From: Lentzea aerocolonigenes
Lineage (GTDB): Bacteria > Actinomycetota > Actinomycetes > Mycobacteriales > Pseudonocardiaceae
Length of the DNA: 64,000 nt
Direction: 5' to 3'
NCBI RefSeq assembly: GCF_000955955.1
Contig: NZ_JYJG01000084.1
Location: 11,897 to 75,896 of the forward strand
The notes below the pieces were generated by a model. It had not been told where the DNA came from and made no database searches. It worked only from the letters and a program-made list of their open reading frames with translations. Positions 30,234 through 33,971 of the stretch are shown piece by piece. Within the stretch, counting starts at the first letter, position 1. Every line of letters starts with the position of its first letter. Position numbers and translations under genes: made by a program.

Positions 30234-31073
30234 GTGAGCCTGCTGGGACCCGCCGAAGTGAGACGTCTGGCCGAAGAGCTGGGCATCCGACCCACCAAGA
30301 AGCTGGGCCAGAACTTCGTGCACGACCCCAACACGGTCCGCAAGATCGTCACCGCCGCCGGCCTCACCGAGGACGACGTCGTCCTGGAGGTCGGCCCGGG
30401 CCTGGGTTCCCTGACTCTCGCCCTGCTGCCCAGCGCCAAGCGGCTGGTAGCGGTCGAGATCGACCCGCCGCTCGCAGACCGCCTCCCGCAGACCGTCAGC
30501 GAGATGGACCCGGAGAACGCCGCCAAGCTGCACGTCGTCCTCAAGGACGCCATGAAGGTCACCCACGAGGACCTCCCGGTCCAGCCGACGGCGATCGTGG
30601 CCAACCTGCCCTACAACGTCGCCGTCCCGGTCGTCCTGCACCTCCTGCACGAGCTGCCAAGCCTCAAGAAGGGCCTCGTCATGGTCCAGGCCGAGGTCGC
30701 CGACAGGATGGCCGCGGAGCCCGGCAGCAAGATCTACGGCGTCCCCAGCGTGAAGATCGCCTGGTACGGCAAGGCCAAGAAAGCGGGCCCGGTCGGCAGG
30801 AACGTCTTCTGGCCGGCTCCCAATGTGGACTCGGGTCTGGTCTCGTTCCACCGCCACGAAAACCCGCTGTCCACAGTGGACCGCAAGAGGCTCTTCGGGA
30901 TCGTCGACGCGGCCTTCGCGCAGCGCCGCAAGACCCTCCGCGCGGCCCTCAAGGGGTGGGCGGCCACGCAGGACGTCAACATCGACGAACTGCTCGAAAA
31001 GGCCGGCATCGACCCGCAGGCCAGGGGCGAGCAGCTGAGCGTGATCGACTTCATCCGGATCGCTGAGGTCTAG
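30234..31073 (+). CDS. rsmA: 16S rRNA dimethyladenosine transferase
   Basis: RsmA (KsgA) dimethylates two adjacent adenosines of the 3' hairpin of 16S rRNA late in 30S assembly. Signatures: [17 protein letters not shown], the SAM site [15 protein letters not shown], the acidic [10 protein letters not shown] and the catalytic [19 protein letters not shown] and the C-terminal domain with [12 protein letters not shown] are complete. At 279 aa it has the standard length. GTG 30234 follows AGAATGCTCAA with no strong RBS. Confidence 0.96.
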
Positions 31074-31159
31074 GCCGGGGATCCATCGGCCAACAGTGTG
31101 ATCTGTCGAACGAATCGGATTCTGGCTTGCGCAACCGAACGTGCGTCCGGTTGACTGCT

Positions 31160-31260
31160 AGATGCCATCCGGAGCGACTGAGAGACCTGGCTCTACGACG
31201 TCGCAGCAACCACCCGCTGGATGCGGGCAGGTGCTAACGCCAGGACCGATGGAGGATCAC
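31160..31260 (+). ncRNA. SAM-I (S-box) riboswitch upstream of metNIQ
   Basis: The conserved S-box core is readable: a 5' CCATC (31165-31169) pairs with GATGG (31248-31252) as P1, enclosing GAGAGACCTGGCTC, GCAGCAACC and CAGGTGCTAACGCCAG. CACCCGC/GCGGGCAG forms the third arm. The following genes import methionine, the precursor of SAM, which fits the ligand. The 3' strand of P1 runs into the GGAGG (31251-31255) that serves the leader peptide beginning at 31261. SAM binding may therefore mask that ribosome binding site directly. Confidence 0.88.
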
Positions 31261-31347
31261 ATGGGTACCACGCGAATGCTGACGCGCCGGCGAGTCGTCG
31301 ACCAGTGCCGCCGCACGTCTTCTGCATGTCGTCGCCACCTCGTCTAA
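31261..31347 (+). CDS. 28-residue Cys/Arg leader peptide between riboswitch and metN
   Basis: ATG 31261 follows GGAGG with a 5-base gap, a strong ribosome binding site. The product reads MGTTRMLTRRRVVDQCRR then TSSACRRHLV and stops at TAA 31345-31347. Its 'LTRRRxVDxCR..SSACR' pattern matches the short leader peptides found ahead of sulphur-assimilation and transporter genes in actinomycetes, in which slow translation of Cys codons is thought to control downstream expression. The 124 bp to metN contain a 10-bp stem with one G-U pair (31390-31399/31439-31448) that could be the regulated element. No longer gene fits this interval. Confidence 0.72.
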   Translation: MGTTRMLTRRRVVDQCRRTSSACRRHLV

Positions 31348-31471
31348 GGCGCCTTCTCAAAGTCCTTTGACGCGCACTCAGCCTAAGAGTGGCGCACACC
31401 TGAGCAGCAGAACTCCGATCGCGCACCGCCCACGAGGCGTGTGTGCCATCGCGCGCAGCCGTGGAGTAGAA

Positions 31472-32470
31472 GTGATCACTGTCGAAAACCTCACCAAGTC
31501 CTTCCAGGGTGTCAACGCCCTCAACGGCGTGACCCTCGACGTCGAGGCGGGCACCGTGCTCGGCGTGGTCGGCCCGAGCGGGGCCGGCAAGTCGACCCTC
31601 GCCCGCTGCGTCGCGCTGCTGGAGCGCCCCGACTCGGGTGCGATCCGCGTCGACGGCACGGACATCACCGCGCTGGACGGGTCTGCGCTGCGGGCCGCTC
31701 GCAGGCAGATCGGCGTTGTGCCGCAAGGGGATTCGCTGCTCCGGCAGCGCACCGCCGCCGGCAACATCGCCCTGCCGCTCGAGTCCGCCGGCATCCCGGG
31801 ACCGCAGCGCCGCACCCGTGTGGGCGAGCTGCTGGACCTCGTCGGCCTGACCGACAAGGCCGCCGCCTACCCCGACCAGCTGTCCGGCGGGCAGCGTCAG
31901 CGCATCGCCGTGGCGCGTGCACTCGCCGCGAACCCCAGCGTTCTGCTCGCCGACGAGCCCACGTCGGCCCTGGACCCGGAGACCACCGGTTCCGTGCTGA
32001 CCGTGCTCGACCGTGCGCGCGCGGAACTGGGTGTGACCGTTCTCGTCGTCACGCACGACATGGGCGTGGTTCGGAAGATCTGCGATGACGTCGCCGTGCT
32101 GGAGCAGGGCCGCGTCGTCGAGCACGGCAAGGTGCTCGACCTGGTCAACGACGCCGGCAGCCGCACGAGCAGCGCGTTGCTGCCCGCCGTCGACCTGAAC
32201 CCGATCAACGAGAGCACCTACGACCGCGTGGCTGACGTCGTGCTCGTCGGGTTCGCCGCGGTCGGCGCTCTGCTGCCAGAGGCGGCGCACCGGTTCAGCG
32301 TCGAGCTGAACATCGTCGGTGGCGGCCTGACGCGCCTGGGTGAGACCCCGGTCGCGCGGTTCCGCCTCGGCCTGAACGGTGAGCGGTCCGACTCCGCGCT
32401 GGAGTGGATCAGCGAGGCCGGCGGCGCTGTGCAGAGGTCCCTGAAGGGGCCGCAGGGAGTAGCTGCGTGA
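31472..32470 (+). CDS. metN: methionine importer ATPase
   Basis: A 332 aa ABC ATPase with Walker A GPSGAGKST, signature LSGGQRQRIAVARAL, Walker B LLADEPTSALDP and H-loop VTHDMGVVRKI. After about residue 245 comes the NIL domain (VGFAAVGALLPEAAHRFSVELNIVGG), specific to MetN, where methionine binding inhibits transport. GTG 31472 follows GGAGTAGAA; the in-frame sequence upstream is leader. Its stop overlaps the metI start by 4 bp (GTGA). Control by the S-box and leader peptide is expected. Confidence 0.95.
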   Translation: MITVENLTKSFQGVNALNGVTLDVEAGTVLGVVGPSGAGKSTLARCVALLERPDSGAIRVDGTDITALDGSALRAARRQIGVVPQGDSLLRQRTAAGNIALPLESAGIPGPQRRTRVGELLDLVGLTDKAAAYPDQLSGGQRQRIAVARALAANPSVLLADEPTSALDPETTGSVLTVLDRARAELGVTVLVVTHDMGVVRKICDDVAVLEQGRVVEHGKVLDLVNDAGSRTSSALLPAVDLNPINESTYDRVADVVLVGFAAVGALLPEAAHRFSVELNIVGGGLTRLGETPVARFRLGLNGERSDSALEWISEAGGAVQRSLKGPQGVAA

Positions 32471-33150
32471 GGTCTGCAACACCCTGGTCCGACGTGGTGA
32501 GCTACCTCGTCGAGGCCACCGGGGAGACGCTGTACATGGTCGGCGTCTCCACCGTGATCGCCACGGCTTTCGGAATTCCGGTCGGAGTCTGGTTGCAGCT
32601 CACCGCTCCTGGTGGCCTGCGACCGGCCCCGGTCCTGCACCGCGTTCTCGGCTTCATCACCGACCTGGGCCGCTCGATGCCGTTCATCGTGCTGCTCGTC
32701 GCGCTCACGTCGGTCACCCGCCTGATCGTCGGCGGATCCATCGGCAGCACGGCGGTCATCGTGCCGCTGGCCGTCGGTGCGATCCCGTTCGTCGGGCGGC
32801 TCGTCCAGAACATCCTGTCCGAGGTGCACGTGACCGTGGTCGAGGCCGCGGTCACGACCGGTGCCTCGACGCTGCGGATCGTGCGTTCGGTGCTCATCCG
32901 CGAGTCGCTGCCCGCCCTGATCAACGCGATCGGCGTGACGGTGATCGCCCTGATCGGGTACTCCGCGATGGCCGGCGTGATCGGCGGCGGTGGCCTCGGT
33001 GACCTGGCCATCCGCGAGGGCTACCAGCGCTTCAACGACCGGATCCTGTGGAGCACCGTGGCGTGGCTCGCCGTGCTCACGACGCTGATCCAGCTCGGTT
33101 TCACCCGTGCCGCCCGTGCGTCCGACCGGCGCCGGCACGCCTCCGTCTGA
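32467..33150 (+). CDS. metI: methionine importer permease
   Basis: A 227 aa permease with five membrane helices and the MetI family EAA-type loop around VEAAVTTGASTLRIVRSVLIRESLP. The C-terminal GYSAMAGVIGGGGLGDLAIREGYQRF is the most conserved MetI stretch. GTG 32467 overlaps the metN stop, so translation is coupled. A homodimer pairs with two MetN ATPases. Confidence 0.95.
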   Translation: MRSATPWSDVVSYLVEATGETLYMVGVSTVIATAFGIPVGVWLQLTAPGGLRPAPVLHRVLGFITDLGRSMPFIVLLVALTSVTRLIVGGSIGSTAVIVPLAVGAIPFVGRLVQNILSEVHVTVVEAAVTTGASTLRIVRSVLIRESLPALINAIGVTVIALIGYSAMAGVIGGGGLGDLAIREGYQRFNDRILWSTVAWLAVLTTLIQLGFTRAARASDRRRHASV

Positions 33151-33179: not shown

Positions 33180-33971
33180 ATGCGTATTAAGGCTGCCCTG
33201 ATCGCGGTCGCTTTGACTGCTTTGTCCGCTTGCTCGGCCGGTGGAGCGTCCTCTTCGGACACCCTGAAGGTCGGCGTCTCGCCCGTCCCGCACGCGCAGA
33301 TCCTCAAGTTCGTGGCCGACAACCTCGCCGCGCAGAAGGGGCTGAAGATCGAGGTCGTCGAGTTCACCGACTACGTGCAGCCGAACACGGCGCTGGTCGA
33401 CGGTTCGCTCGACGCCAACTACTTCCAGACCGTCCCGTACCTGGCGACGTTCACGAAGGAGAGCGGCGCCGAGGTCGAGTGGGTCGCGCCCGTCCACGTC
33501 GAGCCACTGGGCCTCTACTCCAAGAAGGCCAAGAAGCTCGACGAGCTGCCGTCCGGTGCCAAGATCGCCGTCGCGAACGACGCCACGAACGAGGCGCGCG
33601 GCCTGAAGCTGCTGGAGGCGAACGGCCTGATCAAGCTCAAGGCCGTGGACCAGCCGACCGTGCGCGACGTGGCGGAGAACCCCAAGAACCTGCAGTTCGT
33701 ACCGCTGGAGGCCGCTCAGCTGCCCCGTTCGCTGGAGGACACCGACGCGTCGGTGATCAACGGCAACTACGCGATCGACGCGGGCCTCAAGCCGTCCACC
33801 GACGCGCTGGCGCTGGAGAAGGCCGAGGGCAACCCGAACGCCAACGGTCTGGTCACCAGGACCGAGCTGAAGGACGACAAGCGCATCCGCGAGCTGGCGG
33901 AGCTGCTCGGATCGCAGCAGGTCAAGGACTACATCAAGCAGACCTACAACGGATCCGTGATCCCGGTTTGA
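33180..33971 (+). CDS. metQ: methionine-binding lipoprotein
   Basis: The substrate-binding subunit of MetNIQ. ATG 33180 with AAGGA 6 bases upstream starts a lipoprotein signal (MRIKAALIAVALTALSAC, lipobox LSAC). The NlpA/MetQ fold is shown by VGVSPVPHAQILKFVADNLA, FTDYVQPNTALVDGSLDANYFQ, SLEDTDASVINGNYAIDAG and the C-terminal SQQVKDYIKQTYNG. Length 263 aa is standard. It ends the metNIQ operon, 54 bp before ispE. Confidence 0.95.
   Translation: MRIKAALIAVALTALSACSAGGASSSDTLKVGVSPVPHAQILKFVADNLAAQKGLKIEVVEFTDYVQPNTALVDGSLDANYFQTVPYLATFTKESGAEVEWVAPVHVEPLGLYSKKAKKLDELPSGAKIAVANDATNEARGLKLLEANGLIKLKAVDQPTVRDVAENPKNLQFVPLEAAQLPRSLEDTDASVINGNYAIDAGLKPSTDALALEKAEGNPNANGLVTRTELKDDKRIRELAELLGSQQVKDYIKQTYNGSVIPV

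Follow-up and report, generated by a model that had tools for sequence, protein, structure and literature searches.

Cysteine (Cys) leader peptides were reportedly described in mycobacteria by Canestrari in 2020. In enteric bacteria, the mgtA leader combines sensing with the short, proline-coding mgtL, in which the amino acid codons matter, and its inputs are Mg2+ and proline; we know of no SAM riboswitch sequestering a Shine-Dalgarno (SD) sequence in that leader. In two leaders of Mycobacterium tuberculosis, the riboswitch governs the initiation region of an upstream open reading frame (uORF) lying between riboswitch and gene: the B12 riboswitch of ppe2 (PMC11260477) and the Mbox of rv1805A, where Rho is involved and the rare Cys codons of uORF1 are assumed by the authors to slow elongation (PMC12810186), according to the accessible text of both reports. 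The accessible parts of two further papers describe a Xanthomonas SAM-I riboswitch which also senses uncharged initiator tRNA (PMC7270179) and a Sinorhizobium SAM-II riboswitch which acts at a distance (PMC9373788). Cys leader peptides are known from mycobacteria, for which the accessible part of one report also records an absence of conserved RNA structure upstream of methionine operons (PMC1262725). For Streptomyces lividans, the available portion of one study reports that the metL leader ahead of metNIQ is leaderless, stresses Met and Thr, and tabulates RF00162 only before threonine genes (PMC8079986). In the literature that we searched, mostly without subscription journals, there was no recognisable description of a SAM riboswitch placed on a Cys leader peptide, nor of the UGU codon rule reported below.

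Here we describe a locus in a 64,000-nucleotide stretch of DNA from Lentzea aerocolonigenes (hereafter the window) where, judging from its sequence, a translational SAM-I riboswitch probably acts on a cysteine-sensing leader peptide instead of on metN. Such an arrangement would share with ppe2 and Mbox the control of uORF initiation by a riboswitch, but those systems respond to other ligands and their uORFs are given no amino acid-sensing role in the accessible text (PMC11260477, PMC12810186), whereas the window peptide belongs to a Cys leader type which also occurs alone. With the Xanthomonas riboswitch it would have in common a two-input SAM-I leader on methionine genes; there the other signal enters by direct binding of the tRNA, according to the accessible part of the report (PMC7270179), and here it would enter by translation of a peptide. 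The metL peptide of S. lividans likewise precedes metNIQ and ends in CMCRRMC in the available text (PMC8079986), and from this tail it may be a Cys leader, a reading which is ours and not that of its authors.

The riboswitch part of the leader comprises the following elements.

31162..31255, plus strand: SAM-I (S-box) riboswitch aptamer, RF00162 (cmscan, 58.2 bits)
31165..31169, plus strand: 5' strand of P1, CCATC (sequence and Rfam alignment)
31248..31252, plus strand: 3' strand of P1, GATGG (sequence; two G common to the SD)
31251..31255, plus strand: SD of the leader peptide, GGAGG (sequence)

The original prediction, made from the DNA letters alone, had placed an S-box core here and proposed an Infernal search as a check, which we ran. 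RF00162 scored well above its gathering score of 44.4 bits at 31162-31255 (E 7e-11), with an alignment that spans the full model (1-108), and it was the sole RNA family reported there at the gathering threshold when the best match per clan was kept. By its sequence the segment is thus a SAM-I riboswitch aptamer, predicted to bind SAM. The two G residues said to be common to the 3' strand of P1 and the GGAGG are exactly so. A consensus search of 31000-31520 revealed no promoter-like site. The fold of 31160-31270 calculated without ligand leaves P1 open, as a switch would predict, with a z of -0.79 that is not significant.

Behind the SD lies a short reading frame, with these features.

31261..31347, plus strand: uORF MGTTRMLTRRRVVDQCRRTSSACRRHLV, Cys leader peptide of 28 codons (conserved motif peptide)
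31306..31308, plus strand: first Cys codon, TGC, two residues past the Asp of the motif (D+2; Cys at D+2 in 54/78 peptides)
31327..31329, plus strand: putative sensor Cys codon, TGT, codon 23, nine residues past the Asp (D+9; TGT in 76/78 peptides)

The frame starts with the ATG at 31261, is preceded by GGAGG, ends at 31347 and is followed by metN 124 nt further, all of which agrees with the original prediction. RF00162 was matched in 58/60 relatives, and 39 of their shorter, metN-like loci were fetched, giving 40 with the window. In 37 of the 40, window included, the first ORF behind the P1-fused SD encodes the motif peptide; these are 23 congeneric loci and 14 from ten other genera of the family (Pseudonocardiaceae), five of them from a single genome (G027). 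As for the three loci without the motif, SAM-I opens straight into a long ORF at L032 and L066, and L040 has a 12-codon frame. Among the 24 genomes of the genus, G012 has only one RF00162 match, and no match to the leader DNA was found in G012 or in G033, the latter being 74% complete. Peptides nearly identical to that of the window occur in the Lentzea records L080, L084, L086 and L098. The relatives preserve the frame, the place of its start, the SD, the motif and the Cys codon. The original prediction had staked itself on an Infernal match and on a conserved leader frame, and both were found.

We then took 173 SAM-I loci, 164 of them distinct over their first 150 nt, the named-genome part consisting of the matches listed. 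A peptide of the form R-R-x-[VI]-D-x2-R-x5-C was present in 78 of the 164, which is not a prevalence, because the aptamer pattern was drawn from uORF-positive loci. The same peptide appeared in 0/3280 mononucleotide shuffles, and a chance frame was rejected on this ground. The regular expression demanded Cys at D+7 to D+11 and missed two motif peptides (L138 and L177). Besides these two, the remaining 86 loci include a group with direct opening into a long ORF (metF-, metN- or metE-like by eye), short Cys frames (L073, L082, L093, L119) and loci with no clear ORF. Named positives come from Pseudonocardiaceae, Rhodococcus and Nocardia (both Nocardiaceae), Kineococcus (Kineosporiaceae), Plantactinospora (Micromonosporaceae) and Blastococcus (Geodermatophilaceae), and the motif peptide behind SAM-I extends over five actinobacterial families. 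A strict form of the aptamer pattern, nearly that of the locus scan, was found in 3/296 genomes of the class, the source genome included.

Across 45 distinct metN-type cores, variation expressed as mean minor fraction is 0.39 at third codon positions against 0.14 and 0.08 elsewhere (the lowest at second positions), and amino acid identity falls from 0.73 in the reading frame of the uORF to 0.40 and 0.37 in the two alternative ones. Judged by sequence, such conservation is what a translated leader peptide would show.

In all 78 uORF-coupled loci GATGG is followed at once by AGG, GAG, AGT, AGC or GGG, and the first in-frame start codon lies 4-14 nt from GATGG (7-9 nt in 59/78). The 3' strand of P1 and the SD therefore overlap in a conserved manner ahead of the first ORF, the arrangement of a translational expression platform. 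The window shares with the actinobacterial translational SAM-I platform (RF00162) both an aptamer above the gathering score and an SD inside P1, but the ORF behind this SD is a leader peptide and not the regulated gene.

The new point here is a codon rule. Although the regular expression permitted D+7 to D+11, Cys stands exactly nine residues past the Asp in 78/78 motif peptides, and its codon is TGT in 76 of them (the exceptions, L062 and L067, are from one genome) and in 45/45 distinct metN-type cores; as the peptides share descent, no fair probability can be given for this rule. The two peptides outside the regular expression, L138 and L177, have UGU at D+9 too. Counted at the first Cys behind the Arg, the figures are 72 and 6. 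The background at these loci, counted in long high-GC3 frames, is 179 TGT among 1260 Cys codons (14%); it was taken from all stop-to-stop frames of at least 300 codons with GC3 >0.80 on both strands and may include some non-genes. The contrast between D+2 and D+9 within one peptide is an internal control: where Cys is present at D+2, its codon is TGC in 52/54 peptides, and 24/78 have no Cys at this position. The Cys/Arg-rich tail of the original prediction holds in so far as this is a Cys leader peptide, but its key is one Cys at D+9 encoded by UGU, not general richness. Changing this single codon would test whether the synonymous codon or the amino acid alone is sensed, and cysteine leader peptides missing from annotations could be looked for with the rule as their signature.

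Related peptides exist without SAM-I. The window peptide scores 13.1 bits against NCBIfam NF042934 (cis_reg_atten; cut-off 27, positions 2-19 of 19 covered) and 13.0 bits against NF042933 (Ms5788A; cut-off 45) and, with scores below the curated cut-offs, is not filed as a member of either. It does have R-R-x-[VI]-D-x2-R-x5-C, UGU at D+9 and a sulphur-gene context, which together make up a Cys leader definition drawn from our own data. At E 0.1 the cis_reg_atten model matched 39/40 relatives, 37 of them above the cut-off, and 1/14 control genomes, below the cut-off; at E 0.001 it matched 144/197 class genomes, 128 of them above the cut-off, and none of the controls. Among the best 30 loci of each search, D+9 is TGT in 22/23 distinct loci from relatives and 26/26 from the class, and D+2 is TGC in 5/5 and 18/20, respectively; one further locus (L240) also has TGT at D+9. 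The sole D+9 exception among these best loci is a Lentzea sulphite-reductase leader with TGC (L221-L223, identical).

The source genome has five cis_reg_atten matches at E 0.1, and the three listed were fetched, two over the cut-off and one under. One lies ahead of DUF4395 and rhodanese (L225, D+9 TGT), another ahead of a dicarboxylate-type symporter identified by eye (L227, D+9 TGT) and the third ahead of sulphite reductase and then a cysH-like gene, identified by eye (L226, D+9 TGC). The last of these, a sulphite-reductase leader of Lentzea, is the only SAM-I-free member which we found with UGC at D+9. The source genome has two RF00162 matches only, neither on the contigs of these three loci, so that the Cys leader device stands alone on sulphur genes and would be SAM-gated on metNIQ. 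The original expectation that this leader type is known ahead of sulphur genes is supported by motif and genomic neighbours alike. Compared with described actinobacterial Cys leaders (NF042934, NF042933 and the mycobacterial cys leader ORFs in the accessible part of PMC1262725), the window peptide has the same core, a D+9 Cys that is mostly UGU and sulphur genes behind, but differs in its sub-cut-off scores, in being of a V-[VI]-D-Q-C-R-R-T type and in having its SD held by a riboswitch.

The genes behind the leader are those of a methionine importer.

31472..32470, plus strand: metN, encoding the ATP-binding component of the methionine importer, with a GTG start (TIGR02314 ABC_MetN, 267.5 bits, cut-off 499.7; PF00005 and NIL, PF09383)
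32482..33150, plus strand: metI permease, start codon not fixed (PF00528)
33180..33971, plus strand: metQ, NlpA lipoprotein, start set by eye (PF03180, 295.3 bits)

ABC_MetN is the best NCBIfam match of metN, under its cut-off. An rRNA adenine dimethylase gene (PF00398) lies upstream of the riboswitch-metNIQ locus, and in two congeneric relatives (L006, L007) the other SAM-I site lies directly before thrC, identified by eye. The tandem of SAM-I and uORF also precedes other genes, 9/15 of the genes picked for this purpose having been scored. Their top matches are an ABC substrate-binding protein (L058), an amine-oxidase-like flavoprotein (L067), an NtaA/DmoA-type monooxygenase (L069, the sole top match over a curated cut-off), a flavin reductase (L077), a 3-mercaptopyruvate-sulphurtransferase-like protein (L097), cystine-type ABC permeases (L128 and L190), an amino-acid-binding protein (L132) and a GNAT protein (L134). 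Several of these targets fit the uptake or use of sulphur compounds.

The aptamer, the fusion of SD and P1, the conserved uORF, the UGU rule at D+9 and the company of sulphur genes are read directly from sequence, and they are the basis on which we consider control of a cysteine-sensing peptide by SAM-I rather likely. With SAM bound, P1 would shut over the SD and the uORF would remain untranslated, and the naked leader would then undergo termination, probably Rho-dependent, with metNIQ off. With SAM low, P1 would open, the uORF would be translated and the ribosome would reach the UGU at codon 23 while R-R-V-V-D-x-x-R occupies the exit tunnel. Were Cys-tRNA scarce, the ribosome would stall at this UGU and transcription or translation of metNIQ would go on; were cysteine ample, it would run off and metNIQ expression would drop. 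A translating or stalled ribosome would be the protector of the leader against Rho. Because SAM would hide the SD of the uORF and an untranslated leader would be terminated, SAM would repress whatever the cysteine level, and because stalling at UGU could raise expression under low SAM, the leader would work as an AND gate, with full methionine import only if SAM and cysteine are both low. Methionine can be a sulphur source via reverse transsulphuration, in which case such a gate would be sensible. Ligand action, stalling, the sign of the cysteine response and the part of Rho are what we infer.

Two separately known regulators, the SAM riboswitch and the cysteine leader peptide, are joined here in a single leader, which is found again across many genera. 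If our reading is correct, methionine import would answer to both ends of the transsulphuration route. A further step, which we hold tentatively and at slightly less than an even chance, is that R-R-x-V-D-x-x-R with its nine-residue spacing is a codon-specific arrest peptide, exceptionally sensitive to UGU and not to UGC, to which SAM-I was added, perhaps several times, to give an AND gate for importing methionine and further sulphur compounds throughout Actinobacteria. In an arrest peptide of this kind, UGU would be wobble-read by tRNA-Cys and its slow decoding would be what is sensed.

A simpler relay, in which SAM controls translation of a uORF that metN needs (by coupling, reinitiation or shielding from Rho) while the Cys codon senses nothing, is in our view unlikely. 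Precedent for it comes from M. tuberculosis ppe2, which acts in this way for B12 according to the accessible text (PMC11260477), and a P1-fused SD of this kind precedes ordinary genes at other loci. Against it, 70-227 nt (median 118) separate the stop of the uORF from metN in 60 loci, so that there is no stop/start overlap of the ppe2 kind, and both the UGU rule and the SAM-I-free relatives before sulphur genes indicate cysteine sensing.

Quite unlikely, in our estimate, is an RNA attenuator, in which a local hairpin, 31384-31399, 31439-31448 and the 3' part of the uORF would be rivals for pairing, the stalled ribosome deciding which fold forms and with it whether the metN start is free or hidden. 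The hairpin is the following.

31420..31453 (approximate limits), plus strand: hairpin just 5' of the metN SD (stem re-formed with changed sequence across the 23 congeneric leaders, at least 6 bp in 21)

Within the genus there is something to be said for this mechanism, since the local hairpin (at least 6 bp) is present in 21/23 leaders, its pairing surviving sequence change, and the distal stem 31390-31399/31439-31448 (at least 7 bp) can form in 21/23. That distal stem had been part of the original prediction; it is formable, but its 31439 arm also pairs with about 31421-31430, leaving several competing pairings, and outside the genus another element is found at that place. This element, a palindrome GTCC-N3-8-GGAC (mostly N5, with a variable centre), occurs in 25/38 non-Lentzea loci, against a mean of 0.9 and a maximum of 4 in shuffles, and in 3/22 Lentzea loci; an operator and an RNA hairpin are both candidates for it. 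The 3' end of the uORF is also in favour of an attenuator, as its nucleotides are nearly invariant in the 23 leaders: from the UGU to beyond the stop (31327-31350) even synonymous positions are kept, which suggests a constraint at the RNA level. Nevertheless, no intrinsic terminator-like site was found in 31000-31520, the leader 31310-31475 folds no more stably than its shuffles (z -0.15), RNAalifold on the genus leader gave no clean consensus past the uORF, and in the stretch from uORF to metN the pairing and fold tests brought up no conserved RNA device. In single folds it had seemed attractive that the uORF sequesters the metN SD directly, but pairing compared with synonymous recoding showed no selection (mean z -0.05, 45 loci), and swapping partners had a weak effect (own mean -28.9 against -27.1 kcal/mol), so that neither test supported it.

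A separate role in trans for the uORF product as a small protein, for example on the transporter, is very improbable: the peptide sequence is kept beyond its Cys codons, but peptides of the same core stand ahead of unrelated genes, length varies from 23 to 51 aa over 60 metN-type loci, and no protein function would demand UGU over UGC.

For the step between uORF and metN in the SAM-gated cysteine leader, Rho-dependent termination is our favoured guess, by analogy with M. tuberculosis leaders as presented in the accessible part of PMC12810186 and because an intrinsic terminator was not found. Base content past the uORF is C 0.36 and G 0.27 in the genus and C 0.40 and G 0.24 outside, compared with C 0.32 and G 0.25, and C 0.34 and G 0.26, respectively, at the metN coding start; the excess of C over G is hardly or only somewhat higher past the uORF, which is why Rho is a guess.

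Three minor observations concern the surroundings of these leaders. In non-Lentzea loci (e.g. L031, L037 and L149) the GTCC-N3-8-GGAC palindrome lies some 20-60 nt past the uORF. In four loci (L082, L073, L093 and L119) the SAM-I P1/SD stands directly before short Cys frames that lack the R-x-V-D core, such as MNICTCTHA; Cys leaders of another, simpler kind may also be riboswitch-coupled. Finally, the Pseudonocardia-like genome G027 has six SAM-I matches, with L069 just below the gathering score, and all five of its shorter SAM-I loci (L058, L062, L067, L068 and L069) carry a Cys leader with different genes behind, as if the tandem had spread like a cassette.
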